A stretch of DNA of 21,760 nucleotides, taken from assembly GCA_021166815.1 (NCBI GenBank), contig JAJPEO010000343.1, forward strand, positions 1 through 21,760, given 5' to 3'. The stretch is from Nocardioides sp. Its GTDB lineage: Bacteria > Actinomycetota > Actinomycetes > Propionibacteriales > Nocardioidaceae. This document shows positions 4,614-21,760 of the stretch, in pieces. A model generated the notes under the pieces. It made no database searches. It was not told the DNA's origin and worked only from the letters and a program-made list of their open reading frames with translations. How positions within the stretch are numbered: position 1 is the first letter of the stretch; the number at the start of each line of letters is the position of its first letter. A program made the position numbers and the translations under genes.

Positions 4614-5711
4614 TTGGGTTCACATCGCGCACCACGGCGCCGACGTGCCCCTGCGATCGCGCCGTGGCGGCTGCTGGTCCCGGCCGTCATGGTCACGGGG
4701 CTCCTCGTGATGTCCATGATCCTCGTGCCGCGCGACGCCGACGTGGACTCCAGCGCCGCCATCGCGGCGCGTGCCGGCGCCGGCCACCACGCCGCCGAGG
4801 CCTCCCGCAGCTTCGTCCGCACCCCGAAGGCCCGCAAGCAGGCGCGCGCGGTGCCGTTCGACTCGGCCCAGGCGCGCCTGGCCGTCCAGCGCATCGCCGA
4901 GCGCAAGGCCCGCGAGGTGGCCCGACGCAAGCGGCTGCGCCGCCTGGCCCGCATCGCGGCCATGAAGAAGACCTCCACCTTCCGCGTGGGCGCGCTCAAC
5001 GTCCTCGGCAGCCAGCACACCCGTGGCAAGGGCGGGTACGGCCCCGGCCCGGAGCGGATGGCGATCTCGTCCGGCATCATCATGGCTCGCGGTGTCGACG
5101 TCGTCACGCTGTCGGAGGTCCAGGACGACCAGCTCCCGGTGCTCCTCAACCGGCTCGGCGGCTACCAGGTCTGGCCGCAGCACGCGCTGGGCCGCAACGG
5201 GCAGCGCCTGCAGATCGCCTGGCGCTCGTCGCAGTTCGAGATGCTCGACGGCGGGTCGGTCACCTACACGTTCGCCAGCCAGGCGATCCCCATGCCCTAC
5301 GTCCTGCTCAAGGACCGCAGCACCGGCGCCCAGTTCTGGGTGATCTCCGTCCACCTCTCGGCCGGCGGGCTGGAGGCCCAGCGCGACTCCGGCACGGCCG
5401 TGGCCATCTCGTTGATGCGGCGCCTCATGGCGACCAACGGCAAGCCGGTGATCATCGGTGGCGACGTCAACGAGCACGAGGAGTTCTTCTACAAGGTCTG
5501 TGGTGCGCTGGGCTTCATGGGCGCCAACGGCGGCGGCCCCGGCTGTGCCCTCCCGCCGCGCCCGCTGCGTGTCGACTGGATCATGGGCGGCGGAGGTGCT
5601 GGGGTGAACTTCTCCGGCTACGTCCAGGACGGTTCCACCTTGGCGCGGGCCAGCGACCACTACTTCATCCACGCCGACGTCAGCGTGGTCGACCCGGGAG
5701 GCACTCCGTGA
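4614..5711 (+). CDS. Membrane-anchored endonuclease/exonuclease/phosphatase (EEP) family protein
   Basis: The start is set at TTG 4614 because a strong GGAGGG (4599-4604) lies nine bases upstream and the product begins MGSHRAPRRRRAP. The 365-aa protein has one N-terminal membrane segment (about 18-36, LLVPAVMVTGLLVMSMILV), an Arg/Lys-rich linker to about 120, then an extracytoplasmic EEP (DNase I-like) domain. Expected active-site residues are visible: N129 in ALNVLGSQHT, E168 in LSEVQ, H247 in SVHLS, D284 and N286 in GGDVNEH, D321 in RVDWI, and D348-H349 in SDH. Members hydrolyse phosphodiester or phosphomonoester bonds with a divalent metal; the substrate may be nucleic acid, sphingomyelin or inositol phosphate. 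It overlaps the following lipoprotein gene by four bases and has a paralogous domain at the end of the 998-aa protein downstream. Confidence 0.88.
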   Translation: MGSHRAPRRRRAPAIAPWRLLVPAVMVTGLLVMSMILVPRDADVDSSAAIAARAGAGHHAAEASRSFVRTPKARKQARAVPFDSAQARLAVQRIAERKAREVARRKRLRRLARIAAMKKTSTFRVGALNVLGSQHTRGKGGYGPGPERMAISSGIIMARGVDVVTLSEVQDDQLPVLLNRLGGYQVWPQHALGRNGQRLQIAWRSSQFEMLDGGSVTYTFASQAIPMPYVLLKDRSTGAQFWVISVHLSAGGLEAQRDSGTAVAISLMRRLMATNGKPVIIGGDVNEHEEFFYKVCGALGFMGANGGGPGCALPPRPLRVDWIMGGGGAGVNFSGYVQDGSTLARASDHYFIHADVSVVDPGGTP

Positions 5712-6148
5712 CCGTGCACACTTCCCACCCCGTCTCCTCCCGTCGCCGCGCACTGGCGGTCCCCGCTGCGCTGCTGGCGCTGGGCCTGGTGCTCACCGGC
5801 TGCTCCGACGAGGAGGGGCCCGACGCGGCCAAGGACCCGGGCCCGGCATCGCAGTCCCCGTCCTCCCCCCCGCCCGCGAGCCCGACGGAGCCCGCTGGGC
5901 GGACCGACCCGGCGTGCGCCGAGGTGTGGGTGGTCGGCCAGGCGCTCCCCAAGCCCTACCGCGGGTGCTTCGACGTCGATCGCGAGCGCTGGGTCGAGCC
6001 CGATGTCTACCAATGTTCGTCGGGTCAGCGGATCGTGACGTACGGTCGTACCTTCTACGCCGTGCAGAACCGGGAAGTCGTCGAGACCGACGGACCCCGG
6101 TCGCGGGACCAGAGGTTCCGCTCCCTCATGGCGACGTGTGGGGCCTGA
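5708..6148 (+). CDS. Small secreted lipoprotein, function unknown (146 aa)
   Basis: Translation starts at GTG 5708, four bases inside the end of the EEP gene (GTGA overlap), so the two are probably translationally coupled. The N-terminus is a lipoprotein signal: basic residues (SSRRRALAV), a hydrophobic stretch, and the lipobox LTGC with the lipidated Cys near residue 35. A Pro/Ser/Ala-rich spacer follows to about residue 70, then a small domain with four Cys (DPACAEVW, YRGCFDV, VYQCSSG, MATCGA) that could form two disulfides. The mature domain resembles no family I can name. Its coupling with the EEP gene suggests it works beside it at the outer membrane surface, perhaps as a cofactor or inhibitor; this is inference only. 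Confidence 0.8.
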   Translation: MTVHTSHPVSSRRRALAVPAALLALGLVLTGCSDEEGPDAAKDPGPASQSPSSPPPASPTEPAGRTDPACAEVWVVGQALPKPYRGCFDVDRERWVEPDVYQCSSGQRIVTYGRTFYAVQNREVVETDGPRSRDQRFRSLMATCGA

Positions 6149-6225: not shown

Positions 6226-6308
6226 AACCAGCCGCGCGTCGTGCTCGGGCCACTACGCCATCTTCGACGCCGCTGACACCATCGATGAAGTTTGTGGGGA
6301 CACCAGTC

Positions 6309-7685
6309 GTGCGCAAGTCCACCCTCCGCCTCCTCCCGACGAGCCTGGTCACCGCGCTGGTGGCCGGCCTGCTGGCCGTGGCGGGCTCCGTGCCAGCGTC
6401 GGCAGCGCCGACCCCGGACACCTACGTGCCGCCCAGCGGCCCGGTGTTCAACAACCCCTACGGCACCAAGGAAGCAGTGCGGCGCCTGATCCGTCAGGTC
6501 AACCGCACCATCGACTCCGTGCCGCCCAAGGGCAAGATCCGGATCTCGGCCTGGAACGTCCGCAGCTACCACATGACCTCGGCGCTCCTGCGTGCCCACA
6601 AGCGCGGCGTCAGCGTGCGCGTGATCATGGACCGCCACAACTGGAACCCCGACAACCCCAACGCCGACGCCCAGCGCCTGGCGCGTGGGCTGCGGGTCGG
6701 CAACAAGCGCCGCTCCACCTCCCGCAAGAGCTGGCTCAAGCGGTGCCGTCGCTCCTGCCGGGGGACCGCGGGCATCCCGCACACCAAGCTCTTCCTGTTC
6801 GACCGCATCCGCGGCAAGCGCAACGGCAAGTCGTACCCCGTGCGCTGGGTCTCGATGTACGGCTCCTACAACGCCACCGAGCTCGGCGCCACGATCCAGT
6901 GGAACGACATCTACACGTTCAAGAACGACCAGCAGCGCTACCAGTTCTTCAACAACGTCTTCAAGCAGATGGCGGTCGACGAGCCCCGGCGCCAGGGCTA
7001 CCTCACCTACGGCACCGGCAGCCGCGACATCAACCAGATCTACCCCTACAAGGGCGCCGGCACCGCGGTGGACCCCGTGATGGAGGCCCTCAACAGCGTG
7101 CGCTGCACCGGCGCCGCCACGAGCAACGGGCGTACTCGCATCCGGATCGCGCAGACCTCGATGTACGGCGACCGTGGCCTGGCCATCGCCAACAAGCTGG
7201 CGCAGCTGCGGCGCCAGGGATGCGGCATCCGCCTGGTCTACGCCATGTTCGGCAACAAGGTGCTCAAGGTCCTGCGCGACGCCAACGTGCCGCTGACCCA
7301 CCTGGCCTACGACTCCAACGAGGACGGGATCTACGACCGCTACGTCCACATGAAGTCGATGGCGATCAGCGGCAACGTCGCCGGCAAGCCCGACGCCAAG
7401 ATCACGTGGAACGGCTCGGCCAACTGGACCTCGGTGGCGCTGGCCAGCGACGAGGTCCTGGGCACGATCATCCGTCCGCGGGTGACCACGAAGTACATGA
7501 AGTGGATCGACTACATGTTCACCCACCGCCCGGCGTACTGGGGTCCCCAGCACCCCGACAACCAGGGTCGCGTCGCGCACGGGTCCACCGAGCCGATGAC
7601 CCAGGAGGCGTACGCCTCGATGGTCGAGAAGCGCGCGAAGGAGCGGGGCGTGGACCCCTACGCCCTGATCAAGCAGGAGAACTGA
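6309..7685 (+). CDS. Secreted phospholipase D-like phosphodiesterase
   Basis: The start is taken at GTG 6309, which gives a textbook signal peptide (VRKSTLRLLPTSLVTALVAG, cleavage likely after VPASA) and has GGGGA eight bases upstream. An in-frame ATG at 6285 would add eight residues with no ribosome binding site. The 458-aa protein carries two PLD (HKD) half-sites. The first is complete: H158-T-K160 with D165 and the trailing G185-S-Y-N188. The second has H347-M-K349 and G369-S-A-N372, but the usual Asp (HxKxxxxD) is replaced by Ser354. The active site of the superfamily uses the two His; substrates include phospholipids and DNA. Four Cys suggest disulfides. The next gene starts one base after the stop. 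Confidence 0.88.
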   Translation: MRKSTLRLLPTSLVTALVAGLLAVAGSVPASAAPTPDTYVPPSGPVFNNPYGTKEAVRRLIRQVNRTIDSVPPKGKIRISAWNVRSYHMTSALLRAHKRGVSVRVIMDRHNWNPDNPNADAQRLARGLRVGNKRRSTSRKSWLKRCRRSCRGTAGIPHTKLFLFDRIRGKRNGKSYPVRWVSMYGSYNATELGATIQWNDIYTFKNDQQRYQFFNNVFKQMAVDEPRRQGYLTYGTGSRDINQIYPYKGAGTAVDPVMEALNSVRCTGAATSNGRTRIRIAQTSMYGDRGLAIANKLAQLRRQGCGIRLVYAMFGNKVLKVLRDANVPLTHLAYDSNEDGIYDRYVHMKSMAISGNVAGKPDAKITWNGSANWTSVALASDEVLGTIIRPRVTTKYMKWIDYMFTHRPAYWGPQHPDNQGRVAHGSTEPMTQEAYASMVEKRAKERGVDPYALIKQEN

Positions 7686-7686
7686 C

Positions 7687-10683
7687 GTGGGGCGCTGGCG
7701 GCTGCTCCTGAGCCCGGTCGCGGTCGCGGTCACCGTGACCGCGCTGCTCCCGGCGAGCACGGCGCCGCTGCCAGCGCCTTCCCTCGGTCGTGGCGACCTC
7801 GTCCCGGCGGCCGCGGCCGCGTGCGTCGACGTGCTCGTGGTGGGCGTGGACGGCAACGGCGAGGGCAGCGGCACGACCCCCGGAGCCACCGTCGGCCGGA
7901 TCGCCAAGCGGCTCACCGCGAAGGCGCGGGCCAACGGCCGCACCACGGCCGTCCAGCGAGTCGCCATGGCGACCCCCGGTCCCGAGCGCATGGTGCGCAG
8001 CCGCCGACTGCCCACCCTGCGGGCGCTGACCACCAACGGCGTCCGCGCGTGGCGCCAGCCGGTCGGCACCGGCGAGCGCGCCACGCGCGCCCTGCTCGAC
8101 CAGCACCTCGCGGCCTGCCCCCAGCAGCAGGTCGTCCTCGTCGGCTACGCACAGGGCGCGGCCGTCGTCCACCGCGTGACCCAGGTGCTCGCCTCGCAGC
8201 GTCGCCTCACCAACGTCTCCGGCGCCGTGCTGGTCTCCGACCCCTTCCGCACCAAGCGCTCGGTCGCGGGGGCGCCCCTCGGCAACCCCGCCGCCGGCAC
8301 CGCCTCCGCGGGCGTGGTCACCAAGGTGCTGCGCTCGTACGGCGACGTGCCGCGAGCCACTCCGACCTTCGACGTGGTGTCGGTCTGTCACCGCGGCGAC
8401 CTGGTGTGCAACCCCAACAAGACGGTCGCCGCCGATGCCCTGCGCCTTGCCCGTGGCTACAGCACCTCGCGAGGCACCCGCGCCATGGTGCAGGCCGCCG
8501 AGCGCATGTGGCAGCGCACCGCGCTGTGGCCCATCTCGACGTCGAGCCGGGTCAGCGTCCAGGCCGACGCGGCCTTCAGCGAGCGACTCACCGTCAGCGG
8601 CGGCTCGCCCACCACGCCTGCGGCTCGCTGGGCCGCGACCTCCCTGCCCGACGGCGTACGCCTCTCTGCCGACGGCGTCCTCAGCGGGCGGCTGCGCACG
8701 CCCGGCACCTACCAGGTCGACTTCACCGTGGCCGGGGCGTCTCCCGCCACGCCGGCACGCCAGGCGTCCCTCGTGATCACCGTCGAGGCCGAGTCCGGGG
8801 GCCGGTCGGCCGGCGGCATGACCACCTGCGAGGTCCGCACCGACGGCTCGGCCTGGTGCTGGGGCCGCAACGACTTCGGCCAGGTCGGCGACGGGACCAC
8901 CACCCTGCGGACCCGTCCCACGCGCGTCGTGGGCGACGGCTGGGCCCGCATCGACACCGGCGGCGGCTCCACCTGCGGCGTGAAGACCGACGGGTCGCTG
9001 TGGTGCTGGGGTCTCAACAACTTCGGCCAGCTCGGCGGGTCCGACAAGAAGCGGGCCTCGCAGCCGCGCCGGGTCGGCTCCGACACCAACTGGCGCTCGG
9101 TCTCGGCGTCGTGGACCCATGCCTGCGCCACCCGGACCGACGGCTCGCTGTGGTGCTGGGGGCAGAACCTCCACGGCCAGCTCGGCATCGGCAAGACCAG
9201 CTCCCGCAGCGACGGCCCCCTGCAGGTGGTCGGGTCGCGGCGCTGGGCCGAGGTGTCGGCCGGCGAGTGGCACACCTGTGGGGTGGCGGCCAGCGGTGCG
9301 GCCCTGTGCTGGGGCAACAACGCCTTCGGCCAGGTCGGCGACGGCACCACCGCGCTGCGGGTCAAGCCCGCGCTGGTCGCGGGCGGGCGCACCTACACCC
9401 GCATCGAGACGTCATGGGCGCGCACCTGCGCGATCGCCATCGGCGGGCAGGCCTGGTGTTGGGGCGACAACACCAACGGCGAGCTCGGCAACGGCACGCG
9501 CGCCGACTCCTCCGCTCCGGTGGGCGTGGCCGGTGGCCGCAGCTGGGTCGCCCTCGCCCTGACCAACCACGCCACGTGCGCCACCGAGGTCGACGGGCAG
9601 GTCTTCTGCTGGGGCGACAACCGCTACGGCCAGCTCGGCCGGGCCTCGGTCGGCCAGGCGCTCGCGCCGGTGGCGACCGGGCTGACCTCCACCGGCGCCG
9701 AGGTCGCAGGCGGCTGGTACCACTTCTGCGGCGGCGGCACCTGCTGGGGAGCCAACGACTCCGGCCAGTGGGGCACCGGCACCACCTCCGGTGCCGCGAT
9801 GCCGTCCGAGCCGGCACCGCCGTGGGGCAAGATCACCCGCCTGACGGACGCGCAGGTGCGCGACTGGGCGCCGCGCCGCATCGCGCGCACGGCGATCGCC
9901 AAGCGGCCCGCGGTGTCGAACACCGCCATCGTCGGCAAGGACGGCCGCCGGGGCTTCGCCTTCGACCTGATGACCTTCAACGTGCTCGGCAGCCAGCACA
10001 CCTCTCCGTCGGGTGCCCGTCCGGCCTTCGCGCCGGGCAGGGTGCGCAGCGAGTGGGGCAAGACCATCGTGGAGCGCCGAGGGGCGTCCCTGGTGGGCCT
10101 GTCGGAGCCCCAGCCGGACCAGATCAACCAGTTCAACGTGGCGACCCGCGGCGCCTGGACCTTCTTCCCGGGCAACACCCAGGGCTACGACGCCGCCCCG
10201 CAGTCGGTGATGTGGAAGGACTCGGTCTGGCAGTACGTCTGGGCCGACACCGCCCAGATGCCCTTCATGCGCAAGTCGCGCCCCCAGCCGGTCGTGCGAC
10301 TGCGCCACCGCGCCACCGGACGTGAGATCTACATGATCAACGCCCACCTCTCACCGGGCAACATGCAGGCCGACCGCGACAAGGGCCTCGCGATCATCGT
10401 GGAGCTGGTCAAGCTGCTCAAGGGAGACAACCTCCCCGTCATCGTCACCGGGGACCTCAACGAGCACGCGCTGGCCTTCCGCAAGATCGCCTGCGGCACC
10501 TGGCTGGACGCCGCGATCGGGGGACGCTCCAGCGGTGGTGCCTGCGAGCTGCCCAAGGGGATGCGCGTCGACTGGATCTTCGGCGGACGCGGGAGCTTCT
10601 CGCGCACCGTGATCGACACCTCCAGCCGGGTGCGGCGTACGACCGACCACGCGGTGGTCTCCAGCCGCTTCTCCGTGCAGTAA
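7687..10683 (+). CDS. Secreted cutinase-like / RCC1 propeller / EEP fusion protein (998 aa)
   Basis: GTG 7687 follows AGGAGA by six bases. After a signal peptide (about 1-40) comes a cutinase-like alpha/beta-hydrolase domain (about 44-275). Its nucleophile motif reads G153-Y-A155-Q-G157, with Ala in place of Ser; the Asp motif CHRGDLVC (234-241) is kept, and the usual H-x-x-Y appears as A255-R-G-Y258. The domain is probably not an active esterase. Next is an Ig-like segment (about 280-370), then seven RCC1-type repeats (about 378-710) of the form C-x-V-x-x-D-G-x-x-WCWGxNxxGQLG, each with a Cys pair. An EEP domain (about 760-998) ends the protein and keeps N765, E807, H887, D923, N925 and D987-H988. 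An interaction or substrate-targeting role for the propeller is inference. The EEP domain is paralogous to the one encoded at 4614. Confidence 0.88.
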   Translation: MGRWRLLLSPVAVAVTVTALLPASTAPLPAPSLGRGDLVPAAAAACVDVLVVGVDGNGEGSGTTPGATVGRIAKRLTAKARANGRTTAVQRVAMATPGPERMVRSRRLPTLRALTTNGVRAWRQPVGTGERATRALLDQHLAACPQQQVVLVGYAQGAAVVHRVTQVLASQRRLTNVSGAVLVSDPFRTKRSVAGAPLGNPAAGTASAGVVTKVLRSYGDVPRATPTFDVVSVCHRGDLVCNPNKTVAADALRLARGYSTSRGTRAMVQAAERMWQRTALWPISTSSRVSVQADAAFSERLTVSGGSPTTPAARWAATSLPDGVRLSADGVLSGRLRTPGTYQVDFTVAGASPATPARQASLVITVEAESGGRSAGGMTTCEVRTDGSAWCWGRNDFGQVGDGTTTLRTRPTRVVGDGWARIDTGGGSTCGVKTDGSLWCWGLNNFGQLGGSDKKRASQPRRVGSDTNWRSVSASWTHACATRTDGSLWCWGQNLHGQLGIGKTSSRSDGPLQVVGSRRWAEVSAGEWHTCGVAASGAALCWGNNAFGQVGDGTTALRVKPALVAGGRTYTRIETSWARTCAIAIGGQAWCWGDNTNGELGNGTRADSSAPVGVAGGRSWVALALTNHATCATEVDGQVFCWGDNRYGQLGRASVGQALAPVATGLTSTGAEVAGGWYHFCGGGTCWGANDSGQWGTGTTSGAAMPSEPAPPWGKITRLTDAQVRDWAPRRIARTAIAKRPAVSNTAIVGKDGRRGFAFDLMTFNVLGSQHTSPSGARPAFAPGRVRSEWGKTIVERRGASLVGLSEPQPDQINQFNVATRGAWTFFPGNTQGYDAAPQSVMWKDSVWQYVWADTAQMPFMRKSRPQPVVRLRHRATGREIYMINAHLSPGNMQADRDKGLAIIVELVKLLKGDNLPVIVTGDLNEHALAFRKIACGTWLDAAIGGRSSGGACELPKGMRVDWIFGGRGSFSRTVIDTSSRVRRTTDHAVVSSRFSVQ

Positions 10684-10726: not shown

Positions 10727-12295
10727 ATGCTGCCGCGTGTGCTCTCCGTCGGTGACGACGGGGTGCGCCTCGAGCGTGGGTTCGACGGCTCCCTCGACGT
10801 CCACTTCGACGGCTGGCGCGGCTGGTCGGTCTCGGTGTCGCGCTCCGGCGACGCCGTGCAGATCGACTGGCCCAAGCGCCTGAAGGACCGCCTCGAAGGT
10901 CGCTCCGAGGTGACCATCACCGTCGACGACAGCGAGATCTTCCGGCAGGAGGTCTCCTTCGGTTCCGGCGAGGGGCGCGTCCGGCTCGTCGACCGCCACG
11001 GCAACAAGGTCATCATCGACAAGTGGGGGCTGACCCAGCGCCCCTTCGACTCCCGGCGCGAGGCCGGAGCGGTCGAGGCGATGACCGAGATGGCCGAGCG
11101 GGTCCTGGCCGTCATGCGGGACAAGTGCGGGTTGGAGGGGTGGATCTCGTTCGGCACGCTGCTCGGCGCCGCCCGCTCCGGCTCGGTCATCGGCCACGAC
11201 AGCGACATCGACCTGTGCTTCCTCTCCGAGAAGGAGACCCCGGCCGAGATGGCCGTGGAGCTGTGGGACGTCGCCCGTGCCCTCCACGACGCCGGCATCT
11301 CCGTCAAGCACAAGACCGCCAGCTTCATCACCGTCGTCTACCAGGCGCCCGACGGTGTCCAGGACGGCATCGACATCTACACCTGCTTCTACGTCGGGGA
11401 CCTGCTCCACGAGACCGCGACCGTGCGCGAGCGGGTCCCGCGCGAGGCGATCGTCCCGCTGCGCACCCTCGAGTTCGAGGGCAGGCAGATGCCGGCCCCG
11501 GCCGACCCCGACCGGCTGCTGGCGGTCTCGTACGGCCCCGGTTGGCGGGTCCCCGACCCGTCCTTCCGGCACGAGCCCTCCCGCGAGATCACCTCGCGCT
11601 TCGACGCATGGTTCGGCGCGTTGATGCCGCAGCGGCGCGACTGGACGCAGCACAACGGCGAGGTCGCCCGTACGCGTCCCCGGCCGAGCTCCTTCGCGCG
11701 GTGGGTCACCGGCCAGCTCGCCGGCACGCCGCGGGTGCTCGACATCGGGTCCGGTCCCTCGGCCGACCTGCGCCACTACGCCGCCCAGGGGTGCCAGGCG
11801 GTCGGCTACGACTACGCCCACCCCGGCAAGCACGCACTGGGCGGCCGCGGGATCGGCCTGCCTGCCGAGGCATCGCGACGGATGCTCAACCTGCTCGACG
11901 AGCGCGACGTGCTCGCGGTCGGCGCGATCCTGGCCCGCGGCAAGGGAGAGCAGGTCGTCACCGCCCGCCGCCTGCTCGAGGCGTTGCCCCCCGGCGTCCG
12001 GCCGCGCTTCTGGCAGCTCGCGGCGATGGCCCTCTCGGGTGGGGGACGGGCCTTCCTCGAGGGCGTGTCGCGCTCGCCGCAGGAGTGCCGTCGCCACATG
12101 GAGGCCACCGGGTCCCCGCGTGTCTGGCCCGTCGACCCTACCCAGCTCGAGCCGGCGGTGCGCGCTGCCGGCGGCCGCGTCGTGCACCGCGAGGGGTTCG
12201 CCGCGGCGTCGCGAGCCAGCCGTACCGGCAGCCCGGCCCGCTGGCGCATGAGCGTCGAGTGGCCCACCCAGCAGGAGGAACTGAGCTCCCCATGA
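10727..12295 (+). CDS. LicD-family phosphotransferase fused to a methyltransferase-like domain
   Basis: ATG 10727 is preceded by GAGGAG at good spacing. The 522-aa protein has three parts. Residues 1-110 are a beta-rich domain I do not recognise (VHFDGWRGWSVSVSRSGDA). Residues about 120-300 carry the LicD nucleotidyltransferase-fold signature: GTLLGAARSGSVIGHDSDID with G143 and the acidic D158, D160 and D162, later DIYTCF and YGPGW. Residues about 335-520 look like a class I SAM-dependent methyltransferase: VLDIGSGPSADL with D339 as motif I, GYDYA as the acidic loop, and a late GGGRAFLE. LicD proteins transfer phosphocholine or a similar phosphoryl group to teichoic acid or surface glycan; the substrate here is unknown. 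It heads an operon and overlaps the sulfotransferase gene by four bases. Confidence 0.85.
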   Translation: MLPRVLSVGDDGVRLERGFDGSLDVHFDGWRGWSVSVSRSGDAVQIDWPKRLKDRLEGRSEVTITVDDSEIFRQEVSFGSGEGRVRLVDRHGNKVIIDKWGLTQRPFDSRREAGAVEAMTEMAERVLAVMRDKCGLEGWISFGTLLGAARSGSVIGHDSDIDLCFLSEKETPAEMAVELWDVARALHDAGISVKHKTASFITVVYQAPDGVQDGIDIYTCFYVGDLLHETATVRERVPREAIVPLRTLEFEGRQMPAPADPDRLLAVSYGPGWRVPDPSFRHEPSREITSRFDAWFGALMPQRRDWTQHNGEVARTRPRPSSFARWVTGQLAGTPRVLDIGSGPSADLRHYAAQGCQAVGYDYAHPGKHALGGRGIGLPAEASRRMLNLLDERDVLAVGAILARGKGEQVVTARRLLEALPPGVRPRFWQLAAMALSGGGRAFLEGVSRSPQECRRHMEATGSPRVWPVDPTQLEPAVRAAGGRVVHREGFAAASRASRTGSPARWRMSVEWPTQQEELSSP

Positions 12296-13605
12296 CCCAG
12301 GTCGTCCATCTCCACGTCGGCGGTCCCAAGTCCGGCACGACGTTCGTCCAGCAGGTCCTGGAGCGCAACGCCTCCACCCTCGCCGACGCCGGCGTCCTGG
12401 TGGTCGGCCCGCGCCTGGACCTCATCCACGCGGCCATGGCCGTGCGCGACGACCCGCGCCTGGCCGGCCTGCCGGCCGGGGCGGCCCAGGCGTGGGACCG
12501 CGTCGTGGACCAGGTCCGGGAGTGGCAGGGGCGTTCGGCGGTCGTCAGCTACGAGCTCTTCGCCAACGCCTCCGTCGAGCAGGCACGCGCCGCGCTCGCC
12601 CGCCTCAGCGGGGTTGAGGTGCACGTGGTCGTCACCGCGCGCGACCTCGGCAAGGCGCTGGCCTCCTCGTGGCAGGAGCAGCTGAAGTTCGGGCTCACCA
12701 AGCCGCTCGAGCGGTGGTCGCCACCCCAGGAGTCCGCCGAGCGCAGCGAGTGGGGCTGGCGCACGATGCAGCCGGCCAACGTGGCCGCCCGCTGGGGGGC
12801 CGACCTGCCGCCCGAGCAGGTCCACGTCGTCACCGTCCCCGCGGCGGGCGGCGACAGCGGGGAGCTGTGGCGCCGGTTCGCCGAGGCATGCGGTCTCGAG
12901 GGCATCGAGGGGCTGGACCTCGACGTGGAGCGGGTCAACGAGTCCCTGGGCGTGGTCGAGGCCGAGCTCCTGCGCCGCGTCAACACCGCCCTGGACGGCC
13001 GGATACCCGGCGGCCGGCAGAAGTCGCTCTGGCTGCGCGACCTGCTCGCCCACCGGGTGCTCGCGCCGATCGGCCGCGAGCCGATCGGGACGGTGCCCGC
13101 GCACGCAGCGCAGGCGGGGGAGCAGGCCGACGCGGCCATCGCCGCCATCACCGCTGCCGGCTACCGCGTCCACGGCGACCTCGACGACCTGCGCCCGCGC
13201 GCGGTCGAGGCCCGGCTGCCCGGTGAGGTCACCGACGCGGAGGTGGCCGAGTCGGCCGCGATCGCGCTGGCCGACCTGCTGGTGTGGGCCCGGGAGGCCG
13301 GCGCCGACGTCCGAACCGCGGGGTCCGAGGACGAGACGGACGCCGACGCCGGCACGCTCGACCGGGCGAAGGCCGTCGTACGCTCCTCGCTCACCCGCCT
13401 GGGCGGTCCCTACCGCGACCGCCGCGTGGAGCGGCTGGAGGCCCGGATCGCCGAGCTGGAGGCCGAGGTCGAGCAGTCGCGGGCCCTGCACCTGCGCGTC
13501 GCCACGCTGTCGGACGTGGTCACCCAGCTGCTGCTGCCGGCCTCGCAGCAGGACGGCGAGGTCACGATGCAGGCGCTGCGCGAGTACCGCAAGAGGTCGC
13601 TGTGA
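12292..13605 (+). CDS. Sulfotransferase-like protein with C-terminal coiled coil
   Basis: The ATG at 12292 overlaps the stop of the LicD gene (ATGA). The 437-aa protein begins with strand-loop-helix HVGGPKSGTTFVQQ; PKSGTT (residues 12-17) is the 5'-phosphosulfate loop that binds PAPS. A second element, VVVTARDLGKALASSWQEQL, fits the 3'-phosphate binding region. Members move a sulfuryl group from PAPS to a hydroxyl, usually on a carbohydrate, in the cytoplasm. After about residue 340 the protein leaves the usual fold and ends with an acidic linker and a heptad-rich coiled coil (VERLEARIAELEAEVEQ). A paralogue without that coil lies at 18320. Whether it truly uses PAPS cannot be told from sequence alone. 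Confidence 0.83.
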   Translation: MTQVVHLHVGGPKSGTTFVQQVLERNASTLADAGVLVVGPRLDLIHAAMAVRDDPRLAGLPAGAAQAWDRVVDQVREWQGRSAVVSYELFANASVEQARAALARLSGVEVHVVVTARDLGKALASSWQEQLKFGLTKPLERWSPPQESAERSEWGWRTMQPANVAARWGADLPPEQVHVVTVPAAGGDSGELWRRFAEACGLEGIEGLDLDVERVNESLGVVEAELLRRVNTALDGRIPGGRQKSLWLRDLLAHRVLAPIGREPIGTVPAHAAQAGEQADAAIAAITAAGYRVHGDLDDLRPRAVEARLPGEVTDAEVAESAAIALADLLVWAREAGADVRTAGSEDETDADAGTLDRAKAVVRSSLTRLGGPYRDRRVERLEARIAELEAEVEQSRALHLRVATLSDVVTQLLLPASQQDGEVTMQALREYRKRSL

Positions 13606-13811
13606 CGTCGCGCGAGGAGTGGCGCCGCCGAGCGAGCGTGGCGCTCGGGGTCCGCAAGGTCAGGGAGCTCGAGCGTCGGGTGGCCTCGCTGGAGGTCGCC
13701 GTCGCCGAGAACCACGACCTGGCGCGCCCGCTGGAGCGGGTGTTGGCCGACGTCGAACGCGCCGTCGCCGGGGTGATCGAACGGTCCGGCACGGGTGACG
13801 TGAAAGCATGA
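13602..13811 (+). CDS. Small coiled-coil protein (69 aa)
   Basis: The reading frame starts at GTG 13602, four bases inside the end of the sulfotransferase gene (GTGA), and ends overlapping the ATG of the GT2 gene (ATGA), so it fits exactly between two coupled genes. The product is almost wholly charged helix with heptad spacing (VRKVRELERRVASLEVAVAE, then LERVLADVERAVAGVIER). It has no signal peptide, Cys or catalytic motif. It resembles the coiled tail of the preceding sulfotransferase, so it may bind that tail and scaffold the glycan enzymes. The overlaps on both sides are the main argument that it is real; function is inferred. Confidence 0.7.
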   Translation: MTSREEWRRRASVALGVRKVRELERRVASLEVAVAENHDLARPLERVLADVERAVAGVIERSGTGDVKA

Positions 13812-14788
13812 CGGGCATGTCGTCCGCGCCCAGCCACGTCGACCTGTCGGTCGTCATCCCGTGCTACAACGAGGAGGAGTCCCTGCCTCGCCTCGTGGAG
13901 GTCGTGCGCGAGCAGGTGGGCGCCATCACCGACAACTACGAGGTGATCCTGGTCGACGACGGCAGCCGTGACCGCACGCTGCCGATCCTGCGCCAGGTCA
14001 ACGCTGAGCACCCGCAGTTCCGCTACCTCTCGCTGAGCCGCAACTTCGGCAAGGAGTCGGCGATGCTCGCCGGCCTCAGCCAGGCGCGCGGCGACAAGGT
14101 CGCCATCATCGACGCCGACCTCCAGCACCCGCCGAGCCTCCTGCCCCAGATGCTGCCCCTGCTCGACTCGGGGGAGTACTCCCAGGTCGTCGCCCGGCGC
14201 ACCCGCACCAACGACCCGCCGGTCCGCACGGCGCTGTCGCGGCTCTACTACCGGATGATGAACCGCCTCATCGACGTCGAGCTCCAGGACGGCGTGGGCG
14301 ACTTCCGCGTCCTGGACCGGCAGGCCGTCCGGGCGCTGCTGACACTGGGCGAGACCAACCGGTTCTCCAAGGGGCTGTTCGCCTGGATCGGCTTCCCGAC
14401 CGCGGTGGTCGACTACGAGAACGTCTCTCGCGAGGCGGGGGCCACCAAGTGGCGCCTGCGCGACCTGTTCAACTACGGCATCGACGGCGTGGTGTCGTTC
14501 AACTACCGCCCGCTGCGCCTCTCGATCTGGCTGGGTGTCCTGGTCACGGCCGTGGCGGTGGCCTACGCGCTGTGGGTGCTGGTCGACGCGATCGTCCACG
14601 GCAACCCCGTCGCCGGCTACGTCACCACGATCGCGGCGGTCACGTGGTTCGGTGGCGTGCAGCTGATCGTGCTGGGCGTGATCGGCGAGTACCTCGGCCG
14701 CATCTACGCCGAGACCAAGCGCCGCCCGTTGTTCCTGCTCAAGGAGAGCAGCAACGGGCCCGACGACACCCCGGTGACCGGCCCGTGA
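13808..14788 (+). CDS. GtrB/DPM1-like GT2 polyprenyl-phosphate glycosyltransferase
   Basis: The 326-aa protein starts at ATG 13808, overlapping the small coiled-coil gene by four bases. The GT-A fold is clear: SVVIPCYNEEESLP (14-27), EVILVDDGSRD (45-55), the metal-binding DADLQHPP (102-109), then GVGDFRVLDR and the NRFSKGLFAWIGF stretch typical of the DPM1/GtrB/ArnC group. Two C-terminal membrane helices (about 237-262 and 271-299) match the GtrB layout. Such enzymes transfer a hexose from a nucleotide sugar to undecaprenyl phosphate on the cytoplasmic face. The lipid-linked sugar is then used outside by a GT-C enzyme, and the next gene is a good candidate. No GtrA-type flippase gene is present in the window. 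Confidence 0.92.
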   Translation: MTGMSSAPSHVDLSVVIPCYNEEESLPRLVEVVREQVGAITDNYEVILVDDGSRDRTLPILRQVNAEHPQFRYLSLSRNFGKESAMLAGLSQARGDKVAIIDADLQHPPSLLPQMLPLLDSGEYSQVVARRTRTNDPPVRTALSRLYYRMMNRLIDVELQDGVGDFRVLDRQAVRALLTLGETNRFSKGLFAWIGFPTAVVDYENVSREAGATKWRLRDLFNYGIDGVVSFNYRPLRLSIWLGVLVTAVAVAYALWVLVDAIVHGNPVAGYVTTIAAVTWFGGVQLIVLGVIGEYLGRIYAETKRRPLFLLKESSNGPDDTPVTGP

Positions 14789-17034
14789 GCGCGGCTGCAC
14801 CTCGCCGGTGGCTGTGGCCGCTGGTGGTGTGCCTGGTGACCGCCGCCTACACCGCCGTCCCGTTCGTCCTCGAGCCGCGCTTCTTCCAGCGCGGTGACAC
14901 CGCCGCCCAGTTCGCCCCGACGTGGTTCCACTTCGGCGAGATGGTGCGCGCGGGCCAGTGGCCGGTCTGGCTCGACCCGCAGTCGTGGGCAGGCGGCAAC
15001 TACGCCGGCGAGGCGCTCTTCGGCACCTACAACCCGCTCAACGTGCTGATCTGGCTGGCGGTCTCGCTCGGGCCGGACCTCGCCGTGACGACCTACCTGG
15101 TCAAGGCCACGGTGATGGTGCTGCTCGCGCTGGGCACCTACCTCCTGGCCCGCGAGTACGACGCCCTGCCGTGGGCCTCCGCGGTGGTTGCCGTCGCGCT
15201 GCCCTTCTCCGGGTTCACGCTGTTCTGGGACGCCGGCTCGTGGCCCGCGGGACTGATGGCCTTCGCCTACGCCCCGTGGGTGTGGGTGACCTTCCGGCGT
15301 GCGCTGCGCGGCGTCGGAAACCCGTTCTGGGCGTTCCTCGCCGGGGCGCTCGCCGTGCTCAACGGCAACCCGTACGGCACCCTCGCGGTCGTCGTGATCG
15401 GCGCGGCGATGGTCGTGGAGGGCGCGGTCACCCGGGCCTGGGGCGGACTGCTCAAGGTCGTGCTCGCCGGCGTCGCGATCGCCGCCTTCCTCCCGCTGGT
15501 CTACATCCCGCTGCTGGAGACCGCCGACCTGGCCGTGCGCTCCACCCAGGGCGCGCTCTTCGAGAACTCCGGCAAGCTCCGGCCGGCCGTCGGTGACCTG
15601 TTCGCCGCGAGCTCGCCGCTGCACGTGCCCCCGATCAAGGCGATCACCGGGCCGATGCAGGTGCCGGCCACTTTCCTGGCCTGGTTCGTCCTGCCCCTGC
15701 TGCCGTGGCTGCGGTACGCGGCCCTGCGCGGTCGCGCCCGCGAGCTGACCGGACTGACGCTCGTCACGGTCGCGTACCTCGCCATGACGCTCGGTCCCAG
15801 CAAGCTGTGGCTCTTCCGCTGGCCGCTGCGGGTGATCGAGTACTTCCACCTCGGCGTGCTGGTGGTGCTGGCGGTCCTGCTCAGCCACGGGCTGGCCACG
15901 ACGTCCCTGCGCCCGCGGCTGCTCGGCTCCGCCGCGATCGTGGCGACCATGGGCTGGCTCACGTGGTCACAGGACCCGGCGGGCCTGCGACGTGCGGTCG
16001 TGGGCACCGCGGTCGTGGCGGTGCTGGTCGTCGTGCTGCTCGGGGCGCACCTGCTCCTGCGGCGCACGGGCGCGGTGGCGCTGGTGGCGCTCGGGGGCAT
16101 CGGCGCCGTCCTGGCCCTGCAGGTCGCGGTGATCGGCGAGAACGCGAGCTCGCGCGTGTGGCACGTGCCCACCGACGTCTCCGCGCTGCAGCGCGACTTC
16201 GCCGACCGCGAGGGCCGGGTGATGCAGTTCGCCGACCTCAAGCCCCTGCAGAACCGGGCCACGCGCAGCGGCGACACCCGCAAGCTGGAGCAGCAGTGGC
16301 AGACCTTCCTGCCCGGCAGCATGTACCACCCGGCGGGAGTCGACGCCGTCAACAACTACACCGGCATGGGCTTCTTGCCGTTCACCCGCACCTTCTGCAT
16401 GGAGTACGACGGCCTCACCCAGAAGTGCGGCTACCGCAACCTGTGGCGCGTGGGTGGCTCCGGGCAGCCGCCGCTGGCCGACCTGATGAAGCTCGACACG
16501 ATCGTGGTGCAGAAGAGCCTGGCCGCGGGCGTGGCTCCGGGGGAAGGGTGGCGCGAGGAGTCGCGCGACGAGCGCGCCGTCGTCCTGCGCCACGACGGCG
16601 AGCACGACTTCGAGGGCTCCTCGCTGAGCTGGGCGAGCGACGGCATCGCCGTGGACTCGGCCGAGACGCGCGACCTGCTGCACGAGCGCGTGGACGTGGA
16701 CGCGTCCGCCGGTGGCGGTCGGCTCGTCTTCGCCATGCTGGGGTGGCCCGGCTGGGAGGCCGAGCTCGGCGGGCAGGCGCTGCGCGTCGGCCACTCCGAG
16801 GCCGGGCTGCTCACCGTCGAGGTGCCGGCAGGCGCGAGCGGACGGCTCGACCTGGTCTACCGCCCGCCCGGTCTCGGTGTCGGGCTGGGCGCAGCGGGCC
16901 TCGGGACGGTGCTCGCGCTGGGGCTCGGCCTGGCCGGTCGCATCGGCTCTCGGCGCCGCTCGGAGGACGTCGCGCCTGTGACGTCTCTCTCCGACGATGC
17001 TGGTGCCGAAGGGGGCTCCCGCTCACTAGACTGA
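14785..17034 (+). CDS. YfhO-like GT-C family membrane glycosyltransferase
   Basis: GTG 14785 overlaps the GT2 stop (GTGA). The 749-aa protein begins with a membrane helix followed by an external loop with acidic and aromatic residues (FQRGDTAAQFAPTWFHFGEM), as in GT-C enzymes where the first loop carries the catalytic acid. Roughly a dozen membrane helices extend to about residue 460. A soluble extracytoplasmic domain (about 460-690) with three Cys follows, then a last membrane helix (about 698-718) and a charged cytoplasmic tail. The layout matches YfhO/GtrC-like proteins that use undecaprenyl-phosphate sugars to glycosylate wall polymers such as lipoteichoic acid. Its partner is probably the upstream GT2. 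The acceptor is unknown. The stop codon lies in an inverted repeat with a promoter-like element. Confidence 0.85.
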   Translation: MSAAAPRRWLWPLVVCLVTAAYTAVPFVLEPRFFQRGDTAAQFAPTWFHFGEMVRAGQWPVWLDPQSWAGGNYAGEALFGTYNPLNVLIWLAVSLGPDLAVTTYLVKATVMVLLALGTYLLAREYDALPWASAVVAVALPFSGFTLFWDAGSWPAGLMAFAYAPWVWVTFRRALRGVGNPFWAFLAGALAVLNGNPYGTLAVVVIGAAMVVEGAVTRAWGGLLKVVLAGVAIAAFLPLVYIPLLETADLAVRSTQGALFENSGKLRPAVGDLFAASSPLHVPPIKAITGPMQVPATFLAWFVLPLLPWLRYAALRGRARELTGLTLVTVAYLAMTLGPSKLWLFRWPLRVIEYFHLGVLVVLAVLLSHGLATTSLRPRLLGSAAIVATMGWLTWSQDPAGLRRAVVGTAVVAVLVVVLLGAHLLLRRTGAVALVALGGIGAVLALQVAVIGENASSRVWHVPTDVSALQRDFADREGRVMQFADLKPLQNRATRSGDTRKLEQQWQTFLPGSMYHPAGVDAVNNYTGMGFLPFTRTFCMEYDGLTQKCGYRNLWRVGGSGQPPLADLMKLDTIVVQKSLAAGVAPGEGWREESRDERAVVLRHDGEHDFEGSSLSWASDGIAVDSAETRDLLHERVDVDASAGGGRLVFAMLGWPGWEAELGGQALRVGHSEAGLLTVEVPAGASGRLDLVYRPPGLGVGLGAAGLGTVLALGLGLAGRIGSRRRSEDVAPVTSLSDDAGAEGGSRSLD

Positions 17035-18319: not shown

Positions 18320-19369
18320 ATGGCGAGACGGGTCCATCTGCACATCGGCGCCCCCAAGTCCGGCACCACCTACCTGCAGACGATCCTGTGGCGCAACCGC
18401 GACCTGCTGCGTGAGGCGGGGGTCCTGGTCCCGGGGCGCGGCTTGGTCGACTACAACCGTGCCGCCGTCGCGATGCGGGTGGAGCACCAGGGCGACGGGG
18501 AGGCGGCCCGGGCCTGGCGCGCGATGCTGCAGGAGGTCCATGCCTTCGACGGCGACGTCGTCATGAGCGGCGAGTGGTTCTGCCTGGCTCCGGCACACCT
18601 GGTGGGCCGCACCATCGAGCAGCTCGCGCCGGCGGAGGTGTCGGTGGTCTTCAGTGCGCGGGCCTTCGTCTCGCAGGTGCCTGCCGCGTGGCAGGAGAGC
18701 CTCAAGCGGGGCAACCCGCTCTCCCTCGACGACTTCGTCGACCGGCTGTGGCAGGGCCGGCGCCGATGGAGCTGGGGCACCCTGGATGCGCGGACCGTCC
18801 TCGAGCGCTGGCTGCCGCACGTACCGGTCCAGCGGATGGCCCTGGTGACGGTGCCGCGCGATCGGCGCGAGCCCGACGCCTTGCTGACGCGGTTCTCCGA
18901 GGCGTTGTCCTTCCCCCGTGGCGGGCTGGACCTGGGCGAGGCCGCCCGCAACGAGTCCCTCAGCGTCGAGTCCGCCGAGCTGCTGCGCAAGGTGGCGCCA
19001 CGGGCCCAGGAGGTCATCGACTTCAGCGATCGCCACTGGGCCGACGAGTACCGCTGGATGCGCCGCTACCTCGCCCACGACCTGCTCGTCCCGCAGGAGG
19101 GTCACCGCATCGCCCTGCGCCGCAAGGACGTCTCCCGCCTGCGCCGCCGCTCGCAGGAGGTCGTCGACTGGGCGCGCACCTCGGGGATCAGGGTCGTCGG
19201 TGACCTCGACGACCTCGTCGAGGTGGGCAACCCCGAGCACAGCCTGCACCCTTCCAAGGTCGACGCGGCCGCGCAGCTCGAGCGGGCGGTCCCGGTGATG
19301 GCCCGCCTGCTGCACGACCTGAGAGCCGCCACCCTGGCTGCCGAGGACGAGCGCAAGGAGCGGGCATGA
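18320..19369 (+). CDS. Sulfotransferase-like protein (paralogue of the one at 12292)
   Basis: The 349-aa protein begins MARRVHLHIGAPKSGTTYLQ, with the 5'-phosphosulfate loop PKSGTT at residues 12-17. A second motif, VSVVFSARAFVSQVPAAWQ, fits the 3'-phosphate binding element. The order of motifs, the ARNESLSVESAELLRKV stretch (compare VNESLGVVEAELLRRVN in the other copy) and the C-terminal RVVGDLDDL (compare RVHGDLDDLRP) show that the two proteins are true paralogues, although this one lacks the long coiled-coil tail. It probably sulfates, or is derived from an enzyme that sulfates, a sugar hydroxyl. It follows the terminator of the acyl-CoA dehydrogenase and overlaps the first GT4 gene by four bases (ATGA), starting a second coupled glycan operon. 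Confidence 0.83.
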   Translation: MARRVHLHIGAPKSGTTYLQTILWRNRDLLREAGVLVPGRGLVDYNRAAVAMRVEHQGDGEAARAWRAMLQEVHAFDGDVVMSGEWFCLAPAHLVGRTIEQLAPAEVSVVFSARAFVSQVPAAWQESLKRGNPLSLDDFVDRLWQGRRRWSWGTLDARTVLERWLPHVPVQRMALVTVPRDRREPDALLTRFSEALSFPRGGLDLGEAARNESLSVESAELLRKVAPRAQEVIDFSDRHWADEYRWMRRYLAHDLLVPQEGHRIALRRKDVSRLRRRSQEVVDWARTSGIRVVGDLDDLVEVGNPEHSLHPSKVDAAAQLERAVPVMARLLHDLRAATLAAEDERKERA

Positions 19370-20583
19370 GCCGTACGCGGGGCCGCGAGCAGGTCGTGTT
19401 CCTCATGTACACCGCCGACGGCGGGGGCGGGGTGGCCCGCACGGTCATCAACCTCGCCAACCAGCTCTGCGCCACGCACGACGTCGAGATCGTCTCCGTG
19501 ACCGACCGCAAGGGCGGAGCACGGTTCCCGGTCGACCCGGCGGTGCGGGTGACCTACCTGCAGTCGCTGCGCAGGACCGAGCCCCGCAACCTGGCGCCGG
19601 GCGACCGGCGCTGGCGCGACCGGCCGGGCCGTACGGCACGCAGTCGTCGCCTGGCCGCCCGACCCACCAGCCTGCTGGGCGACATCAAGAACGTCATGCC
19701 CGGGATGACGGCGTGGGGTGATCGGTTGATCCGGCGCAAGATCCGGTCGTTGCGTGGGGGTGTGCTGATCACGACGCGGCCGTCGTTGCACGTGGCGGCG
19801 GCGCGGTGGGCGCGCCCGGGTGTGGTGACGATCGCTCAGGACCACCTCAACTTCCCCACGCGCAGCCGCACCGACTGGGTGATGGCGGCGCAGCGCGAGG
19901 CGTTGGAGGGGTTGGACGCGTTCGTGGTGCTGACGGCCGAGGACGAGGCGGACTACCGGGCGTGGGTGCCGGGGGCGCGGGCGCGGGTGGTGACGATCCC
20001 GAATGCGTCGTCGTGGGCGGTGGCCGGGGGGCCGCCGGACCTGTCGGTGCCGGTGGCGGTGACGGGTGGGCGGTTCGAGCATCGCAAGGGCTTCGTGCGG
20101 ATGGTGCAGGCGTGGGCGCAGGTGGCGGGGGAGTTCCCGCAGTGGCAGCTGCACATCTATGGCTCGGGTGCGGAGCAGGGCCGGATCGAGGCGGCGATCG
20201 AGTCCGGCGGGGTGGCGGACTCGGTGGTGCTGAAGGGCTACAGCCAGGACTTCGACCGGGTGTTGCGCAGTGGGTCGGTCTACCTGATGGCCTCGCACTA
20301 CGAGGGTTTCCCGATGGTGTTGGTGGAGGCGATGGGCAGTGGGTTGCCGTTGGTGGCCTACGACTGTCCGCGCGGTCCGGCTGACGTGATCGAGGACGGG
20401 GTCAACGGCCGGTTGGTGCCCGACGGGGATCGTGATGCCTATGCGGAGGCGTTGCGTGAGGTGCTGTCCGACCTGGGGGTGCGGGAGCGGATGGCCCGTG
20501 CCGGCCTGGAGCGTGCCCGCGCCTACCAGCCCGAGGTGATCACCCAGCGCTGGCGCGAGCTCATCGAGGACCTGCGCGGATGA
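19366..20583 (+). CDS. GT4-family glycosyltransferase, copy 1 (TagE-like motifs)
   Basis: The 405-aa protein has a GT-B fold. The N-terminal domain has the glycine-rich loop TADGGGGVARTVINLAN (16-32), and the C-terminal domain has VAVTGGRFEHRKGFVRMV, HIYGSG, the E-x7-E motif from E313 to E321 (EGFPMVLVE) and AYDCPRGPADVIEDGVNG (331-348). The DCP-x-GP-x-x-I-x-x-G-x-NG pattern is typical of TagE-type poly(glycerol-phosphate) glucosyltransferases and related wall-glycan GT4 enzymes, which act in the cytoplasm with a nucleotide sugar. From M114 onward the DNA is about 94% identical to the next gene, while residues 1-113 are much more diverged. That shared part also uses G- and T-ending codons and TTG Leu, unlike the C-ending codons of its own 5' end. 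Mosaic origin is likely. Confidence 0.9.
   Translation: MSRTRGREQVVFLMYTADGGGGVARTVINLANQLCATHDVEIVSVTDRKGGARFPVDPAVRVTYLQSLRRTEPRNLAPGDRRWRDRPGRTARSRRLAARPTSLLGDIKNVMPGMTAWGDRLIRRKIRSLRGGVLITTRPSLHVAAARWARPGVVTIAQDHLNFPTRSRTDWVMAAQREALEGLDAFVVLTAEDEADYRAWVPGARARVVTIPNASSWAVAGGPPDLSVPVAVTGGRFEHRKGFVRMVQAWAQVAGEFPQWQLHIYGSGAEQGRIEAAIESGGVADSVVLKGYSQDFDRVLRSGSVYLMASHYEGFPMVLVEAMGSGLPLVAYDCPRGPADVIEDGVNGRLVPDGDRDAYAEALREVLSDLGVRERMARAGLERARAYQPEVITQRWRELIEDLRG
19705..20400 (+). repeat. Long direct repeat, copy 1 (shared GT4 segment)
   Basis: This segment matches 20922-21617 at a constant offset of 1217 bases with no indels. The first 131 bases (19705-19835) are exactly identical. By hand count there are roughly 40 differences over 696 bases, clustered where residues SRTDWV of copy 1 become SKSPST in copy 2. 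Similarity continues more weakly to the gene end. Confidence 0.9.
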
Positions 20584-21760
20584 CGGCGGTGTCCGGTGGC
20601 GGGGCCAAGGTCACCTTCCTGGTCTACAACGCCGACGGCAGCGGCGGCGTGGCACGCACGGTGGTCAACCTGGCCAACTCACTGGTGGAGATGCGGGAGG
20701 TCGAGGTCGTCTCGGTCGTCGACGGTCCGGCTGGCCCGAGCTTCCCCCTCGACGAGCGGGTCCGGCTGACCGTGCTGACCACGCTGCGCCGCCACGAGCC
20801 GCAGGACCTGCCGCCCGGCGACCGCCGCTGGCGCGACCGGCCGGGCCGCAGCGTCCTCTCCCGCTGGCTGGCCGGGCGTCCCACGCGGCTGCGACAGGGC
20901 GACGGTGGTCGCGACCCGGCCATGACGGCGTGGGGTGATCGGTTGATCCGGCGCAAGATCCGGTCGTTGCGTGGGGGTGTGCTGATCACGACGCGGCCGT
21001 CGTTGCACGTGGCGGCGGCGCGGTGGGCGCGCCCGGGTGTGGTGACGATCGCGCAGGACCACCTCAACTTCCCGACCCGCAGCAAGAGCCCCTCCACGAT
21101 GGCGGCGCAGCGGGAGGCGTTGGAGGGGTTGGACGCGTTCGTGGTGCTGACGGCTGAGGACGAGGTGGACTATCGGGCGTGGGCGCCGGGGGCTCGGGCG
21201 CGGGTGGTGACGATCCCGAATGCGTCGTCGTGGGCGGTGGCTGGGGAGGCGCCGGACCTGTCGGTGCCGGTGGCGGTGACGGGTGGTCGGTTCGAGCATC
21301 GCAAGGGTTTCGTGCGGATGGTGCAGGCGTGGGCCGAGGTGGCGGGGGAGTTCCCGCAGTGGCAGCTGCACATCTATGGCTCGGGTGCGGAGCAGGGGCG
21401 CATCGAGGCGGCGATCGAGTCGTGTGGTGTGGCGGACTCGGTGGTGCTGAAGGGGTACAGCCAGGACTTCGACCGGGTGTTGCGTAGTGGGTCGGTGTAC
21501 TTGATGGCTTCTCACTACGAGGGGTTCCCGATGGTGTTGGTGGAGGCGATGGGCAGTGGGTTGCCGTTGGTGGCCTACGACTGTCCGCGTGGTCCGGCTG
21601 ACGTGATCGAGGACGGGGTCAATGGTCGGCTGGTGCCTGATGGTGATCGGGCGGCGTACGCGGCGGCGTTGCGGGAGGTGTTGTCGGACGTGGGCGTGCG
21701 TGAGCGGATGGCCCGTGCGGGCCTGGAGCGCGCGCATGCCTACCAGCAGGAGCGGATCAC
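20580..21760 (+). CDS. GT4-family glycosyltransferase, copy 2, cut by window edge
   Basis: ATG 20580 overlaps the stop of copy 1 (ATGA), and the frame is open to the window end, giving 393 residues; by comparison with copy 1 only a dozen or so are missing. The N-terminal third (YNADGSGGVARTVVNLANSL) is related to but clearly different from copy 1. From M115 the protein is nearly identical, including GGRFEHRKGF, the E-x7-E motif (EGFPMVLVE) and DCPRGPADVIEDG. The shared C-terminal domain, which binds the nucleotide sugar in GT-B enzymes, implies the same donor, while the different N-terminal domain suggests a different acceptor. It is probably translated together with copy 1 and the sulfotransferase. 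Further copies may lie downstream. Confidence 0.9.
   Translation, partial: MTAVSGGGAKVTFLVYNADGSGGVARTVVNLANSLVEMREVEVVSVVDGPAGPSFPLDERVRLTVLTTLRRHEPQDLPPGDRRWRDRPGRSVLSRWLAGRPTRLRQGDGGRDPAMTAWGDRLIRRKIRSLRGGVLITTRPSLHVAAARWARPGVVTIAQDHLNFPTRSKSPSTMAAQREALEGLDAFVVLTAEDEVDYRAWAPGARARVVTIPNASSWAVAGEAPDLSVPVAVTGGRFEHRKGFVRMVQAWAEVAGEFPQWQLHIYGSGAEQGRIEAAIESCGVADSVVLKGYSQDFDRVLRSGSVYLMASHYEGFPMVLVEAMGSGLPLVAYDCPRGPADVIEDGVNGRLVPDGDRAAYAAALREVLSDVGVRERMARAGLERAHAYQQERI
20922..21617 (+). repeat. Long direct repeat, copy 2 (shared GT4 segment)
   Basis: This is the partner of 19705-20400. It starts abruptly at the ATGACGGCGTGGGGTGATCG sequence, right after diverged DNA, and has the same G/T-ending codon style as copy 1. 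The sharp left boundary and the matching composition point to gene conversion or recombination of this block between copies. Confidence 0.9.

Follow-up and report, generated by a model that had tools for sequence, protein, structure and literature searches.

In a 21,760-nucleotide stretch of the genome of Nocardioides sp. (GenBank assembly GCA_021166815.1, contig JAJPEO010000343.1; hereafter the window), a gene located at positions 7687..10683 (+ strand, as are all features of the window given below) codes for a 998-amino acid (aa) protein that joins a cutinase-like domain devoid of its catalytic Ser and His to an RCC1 propeller and an EEP phosphodiesterase domain. We propose, with a probability of about 0.5, that this is a secreted, self-targeting phosphodiesterase, which edits a phospho-decorated surface glycopolymer whose synthesis would be encoded alongside it. 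Its EEP domain would perform metal-dependent cleavage of a phosphodiester (or phosphomonoester) in the polymer, on which the enzyme would be held by the propeller and the cutinase-fold domain. The latter would be of esterase descent, having lost the Ser and mostly also the His, with the fold, Asp238, the disulfide and the pocket backbone kept as a binding site.

The gene is a single frame with a GTG start, preceded at a distance of seven bases by a likely ribosome-binding site, AGGAG (7675..7679; identified by eye). The N-terminus of the product resembles, by eye, a signal peptide, and the protein is probably secreted. Profile, fold and alignment data place the pseudo-cutinase domain at residues 46-262 (7822..8472; Pfam Cutinase, 50.1 bits, cut-off 25.9) and the EEP domain at residues 735-998 (9889..10680). 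Between them lie an Ig-like linker (residues 280-370; 8524..8796), matched by He_PIG of Pfam below the cut-off (21.9 vs 24), and a seven-blade propeller with paired Cys (8806..9801). This gene is the sole cutinase match in the source genome (89.7% complete, 400 contigs).

The protein search, in which 7996 candidates were scored, gave 4891 matches, and the best 120 of these plus the window protein were taken (121 proteins). Thirteen of 1100 aa or more were omitted from the alignment because of their length; of the 108 aligned proteins (P0001 included), 100 cover the cutinase as well as the EEP region, low coverage having removed six, and two of the remaining 102 (P0073 and P0120) having no cutinase domain. 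Judging from these alignments, the architecture is that of a family and no one-off, and the observed pattern goes beyond chance because it is conserved across this family. With the first 285 residues as the query, only one free-standing protein (P0122, 374 aa) was found among 7997 candidates scored; free-standing pseudo-cutinases thus look rare within the limits of that search.

Residues 46-262 have the alpha/beta-hydrolase fold of cutinases (CE5), and the fold proposed for this domain in the initial annotation is therefore real. The former nucleophile elbow reads GYAQG (residues 153-157; 8143..8157) in place of GYSQG, with Ala155 encoded by GCA (8149-8151), and the place of the catalytic His is taken by Ala255 (8449..8451) within ARGY (255-258), while Asp238 (8398..8400) is retained together with its disulfide in the motif CHRGDLVC (234-241). 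All of these motifs and the codon read as annotated, and both losses proved to be family-wide in most of 135 rows, made up of 100 aligned fusion proteins, the free-standing P0122 and 34 whole-genome loci (two of 154 domains, L089_4 and L114_10, were dropped as shorter than 150 aa). Position 155 is occupied by Ala in 123 rows, Ser in nine, Gly in two and Asp in one, so that 126 of the 135 rows lack the Ser; the catalytic His is present in 12 of 135, and Asp238 in all 135. C234 was found in 100 of 102 rows, the remaining two being P0073 and P0120, and C241 in all 100 rows having the cutinase domain.

The annotation had given homologues with Ser155 as something that would refute its reading. Such homologues exist, and the nine Ser-bearing rows include seven with a full Ser-Asp-His (S-D-H) triad (L082, L083, L084, L085, L109, P0106 and P0115), in addition to two with S-D-S (L108 and L110); these relatives are deep members of the family and date the loss, and the loss itself stands. 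A further five rows are A-D-H (L088, L112, P0039, P0116 and P0117). Sixteen of the 17 other cutinases compared carry S-D-H; the other carries S-D, its His being unaligned. The fold, disulfide cysteines, elbow position and Asp motif are shared with cutinases of CE5 (PF01083), Rv3802c and mycobacteriophage lysin B; in contrast to these, the fusion protein is without Ser and His, has a changed oxyanion-side motif, and carries the propeller and the EEP domain.

The change at the oxyanion side involves residues 55-59, DGNGE (7849..7863), aligned at the site of an RGSxE-type motif of triad-bearing cutinases. These residues change as a block: the 121 rows without Ser and His mostly have D55 (102 rows) and N57 (112 rows), whereas R55 (16 rows) and S57 (15 rows) predominate in the 23 S-D-H rows. 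The conservation of Ala155 in the 124 rows without Ser is 98%, compared with 57% for the domain on average. A pocket conserved in this way fits a binding role of the cutinase-fold domain, and, being re-fixed, it would be more in keeping with a binding site than with an inert remnant.

In a tree of 66 cutinase-RCC1 rows, with the trait columns omitted, at least seven changes between Ser and non-Ser, at least six between His and non-His and at least three between fused and split forms were required, although such counts cannot separate loss from regain. Forcing all 57 non-Ser rows into one clade, chosen after the data were seen, cost 164 log-likelihood units (approximately unbiased [AU] test, p 3.2e-5). 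A single clade (support 99), in which no row has Ser, unites 50 of the 66 rows, including that of the window. The trees were quick ones with support from the Shimodaira–Hasegawa-like approximate likelihood ratio test (SH-aLRT) only, and many deep forks are poorly placed; one tree used 15 of the 17 outgroup rows and family rows thinned by identity. These results indicate that in the window's clade the Ser was lost long ago, and that losses of the Ser probably occurred more than once. The annotation had remarked that the GCA codon is one change away from a Ser codon. This does not point to a recent change, because Ala is present in 27 of 34 related loci (window excluded), where it is coded by GCC (21) or GCG (6); the Ser codons are TCC (6) and AGC (1). 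The Ala is old.

The EEP domain of the fusion protein is apparently an intact phosphodiesterase, as had been claimed. Its Pfam match is below the threshold (20.5 vs 24.5), and the assignment was secured by profile and fold. The metal-binding and catalytic residues of EEP proteins (N, E, H, D-x-N, D and D-H) are all present: N765, E807, H887, D923, N925 and D962 occur in all 23 EEP domains aligned (those of 22 fusion proteins plus that of the window's separate EEP protein), and D987 and H988 in 22 of them, the remaining row being cut by a contig end. In a larger alignment, they were found in 99 to 102 of 102 rows. The fold and catalytic residues are those of the EEP superfamily (PF03372; Bacteroides EEP proteins, 4c1r, TDP2, nocturnin and sphingomyelinase), with the difference that identity to these solved chains is 13-18% and that the domain is here fused to others.

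RCC1 repeats extend over all seven blades of the propeller (RCC1, 152.9 bits; WD40_RLD, 187.2 bits vs a cut-off of 150), and the seven Cys-paired repeats noted in the annotation are readable by eye as WCWG-type blades. These repeats are shared with RCC1/UVR8-type propellers, from which the present one differs in being presumably secreted and in having two Cys per blade; neither GTPase exchange nor light sensing is expected of it. A whole-protein scan of genome contigs gave 28 loci with matches in or beside the propeller region, which were set aside.

The genes adjoining the fusion gene suggest what its product may act on. Upstream lie genes for a separate EEP-family protein of 340 aa (4689..5711; Pfam 21.3 bits, cut-off 24.5) with its catalytic residues present, a small putative lipoprotein with a weak DUF3558 match (5708..6148) and a PLD-like protein (6285..7685, with the start at 6285 or 6309), which ends one base before the fusion gene. 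Downstream are genes for a LicD-family protein (10727..12295; PF04991, 41.5 bits, cut-off 22.6), a sulfotransferase-like protein, ST1, with DUF6752 (12292..13605; Sulfotransfer_3, weak and sub-threshold), a PgfS/ArnC-like family 2 glycosyltransferase (GT2; 13808..14788; below the NCBIfam cut-offs) and a large, putatively GT-C-like membrane protein with a weak YfhO match (14824..17034). They are followed by a gene for a second sulfotransferase-like protein (18320..19369), which has no confident Pfam or NCBIfam match and resembles ST1 through shared homologues, and by two for GT4 glycosyltransferases (19366..20583, by Pfam; 20580..21758, reaching the window end). With LicD, the PgfS/ArnC-like transferase, the membrane protein, the sulfotransferase-like proteins and secreted-looking phosphodiesterases of two folds side by side, the locus would most simply be one that both makes and trims a phospho-decorated surface polymer, the fusion protein being a self-targeted trimmer.

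Some other features of this region were noted in passing. Directly before the fusion gene, the segment 4689-7685 thus contains two more secreted-looking phosphodiesterases (EEP and PLD) and the small lipoprotein. The LicD protein (10727-12295) has a weak, sub-threshold C-terminal methyltransferase match, a combination that may bear on donor chemistry. An acyl-CoA dehydrogenase gene (17070-18266), with a homologue in 24 of the 34 family loci, is placed amid the surface-glycan genes. No match to the PADLOC anti-phage defence models was obtained at E 1e-5 for four proteins of the locus.

Much of this arrangement recurs across the 34 family loci (window not counted; some stretches end early). PLD is directly upstream in 30 of them and MgtE upstream in 32, a homologue of the lipoprotein is present in 32, and LicD (32 loci; in L082 on the other strand) and ST1 (31 loci) homologues are encoded within five genes downstream. 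The EEP domain is encoded by a gene of its own in 12 loci, namely eight of Nocardioides and four of the five from other genera, being directly downstream in nine and separated by one to three genes in three. The full-triad members L085 and L109 show the usual order, preceded by PLD and followed by LicD. A cutinase-domain match occurs in 38 of 215 genomes of the window's genus, and 30 of these, including that of the window, carry the cutinase-RCC1 family; the family-level search (245 genomes) added five loci in three other genera. Among 24 control loci of other cutinase matches, homologues scoring at least 80 bits were found in none for LicD, ST1 and EEP and in one for PLD, the control loci averaging 13.0 kb compared with 19.0 kb for the loci with which they were compared.

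Relatives of the EEP domain were found in 91 of 293 genomes, belonging to 5 of 37 genera. LicD and ST1 homologues were present in 14, and PLD in 12, of 18 EEP loci without the cutinase domain, three of which contain RCC1-EEP fusions (L133, L134 and L151, the EEP of L151 by BLAST only). Fusions of EEP with a type I phosphodiesterase/nucleotide pyrophosphatase were identified by Pfam in L142 (12103-13989), L143 (7190-9058) and L148 (11086-12939), stretches of the LicD locus in relatives that showed no cutinase-RCC1 gene there. Because split genes, RCC1-EEP fusions and EEP-phosphodiesterase fusions all occur, we conclude that EEP recurs at the LicD locus while its partner modules vary. In addition, tandem EEP paralogues were observed in two LicD-free stretches from other Nocardioidaceae (three in L144, 7047-10016; two in L147, 8548-10818).

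The arrangement recalls the pneumococcal LicD and the phosphorylcholine esterase Pce, an add-and-remove pair acting on a surface glycan. Teichoic acids are known from Nocardioides. The systems would act alike, one enzyme attaching a phospho-substituent to a surface glycan and a secreted, repeat-bearing esterase taking it off again, and a LicD-family protein is indeed encoded nearby. The fold of Pce is, to our knowledge, unrelated to EEP, and we do not file the locus as a member of that system. LicD proteins transfer phospho-substituents to surface glycans, as is described for phosphorylcholine and the LicD of the Lic-1 pathway (PMC10434233). The annotation had proposed a binding module that directs the phosphodiesterase to a lipid, wall or polymer target; the pocket fits this proposal, and the target may now be narrowed to a surface glycan of the LicD locus.

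Other roles of the cutinase-like domain have to be considered. It could be a decaying remnant or inert spacer without a ligand, as might be expected when both Ser and His are lost, apparently several times. We regard this as improbable, given that Asp238 is invariant, Ala155 nearly so, and the pocket motif re-fixed as DGNG. The dN/dS values of the domain, obtained from ten pairs of family loci, bear on both sides: in the six closest pairs they are 0.13, 0.14, 0.17, 0.25, 0.26 and 0.33, similar to those of the propeller (0.14-0.37), with EEP lower (0.05-0.18 in four comparable pairs), and in four more distant, less reliable pairs they rise to 0.26, 0.47, 0.51 and 0.69, with the highest value in the pair that contains the window. 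Taken together, these data indicate that the state of the domain is not simple decay. Hydrolysis through other residues appears very improbable: besides Asp238, His162 is conserved in 121 of 121 rows without Ser and His, but it is also present in 16 of 23 S-D-H rows and so is no replacement, none of the tabulated pocket positions has gained a fixed Ser, Cys or Thr, and Ser255, found in 40 of 135 rows, is not fixed. Pseudoenzymes often regulate partners, and the domain might instead gate EEP or bind another esterase or the PLD encoded next door, the usual upstream position of which would agree with such a role. We consider regulation unlikely, as 12 loci encode EEP separately and EEP also occurs at loci without the cutinase domain.

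Alternatively, EEP could be a secreted nuclease or a scavenger of organic phosphate serving nutrition, with the N-terminal domains binding cells or debris. This seems rather unlikely in view of the repeated placement of EEP with LicD and sulfotransferase-like proteins; moreover, the solved chains closest in fold are two Bacteroides EEP proteins, followed by a mannosyl-6-phosphatase (4c1r), with DNase I at rank 47 of the Foldseek list. Several observations weigh against polymer editing as well. Glycosyltransferases occur less regularly (of 34 loci, 19 have GT2 and 16 the large membrane protein), the sulfotransferase assignments rest on weak matches, and the PLD-like protein is without the usual Asp in its second PLD motif. 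The 18 EEP loci were hand-picked from a ranked list, hence non-random, and four of them have no LicD. Of the five triad members whose neighbours were examined, L085 and L109 alone fit the usual order; in L082 and in L083, which is interrupted by a contig end, just the MgtE side is shared, and L084 is found in another setting. In the seven full-triad members, the cutinase domain may still be an esterase.

The annotation was aware of no described system with this architecture. In our searches of the open-access literature (subscription literature lay mostly outside the scope) we likewise found no description of it, but it is not unique, having a family of relatives. Open-access papers joining cutinase with RCC1 concerned, by title, only plant topics; those joining pseudoenzyme and cutinase concerned only plant GDSL lipases; of the papers combining any two of cutinase, RCC1 and Nocardioides, none among the 15 of 28 listed involved RCC1; and none on bacterial secreted RCC1 repeat propellers pointed, by title and start of abstract, to the present architecture.

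Records of family members named 'cutinase family protein' are mostly not cutinases. The natural relatives with S-D-H, A-D-H, S-D-S and A-D-A allow the transition from an enzyme to a binding module to be tested directly, with no design needed. More tentative is the idea of a chromosomal 'phospho-glycan editing' locus of Nocardioidaceae, in which a constant secreted EEP would be combined with interchangeable modules (propeller, pseudo-cutinase, type I phosphodiesterase), the cutinase having been turned, several times and independently, into a binder of the acylated or phosphorylated polymer that it once cut. In a common soil genus, the locus points to a surface polymer, as yet undescribed in the open-access literature searched here, and to the enzymes of its turnover.
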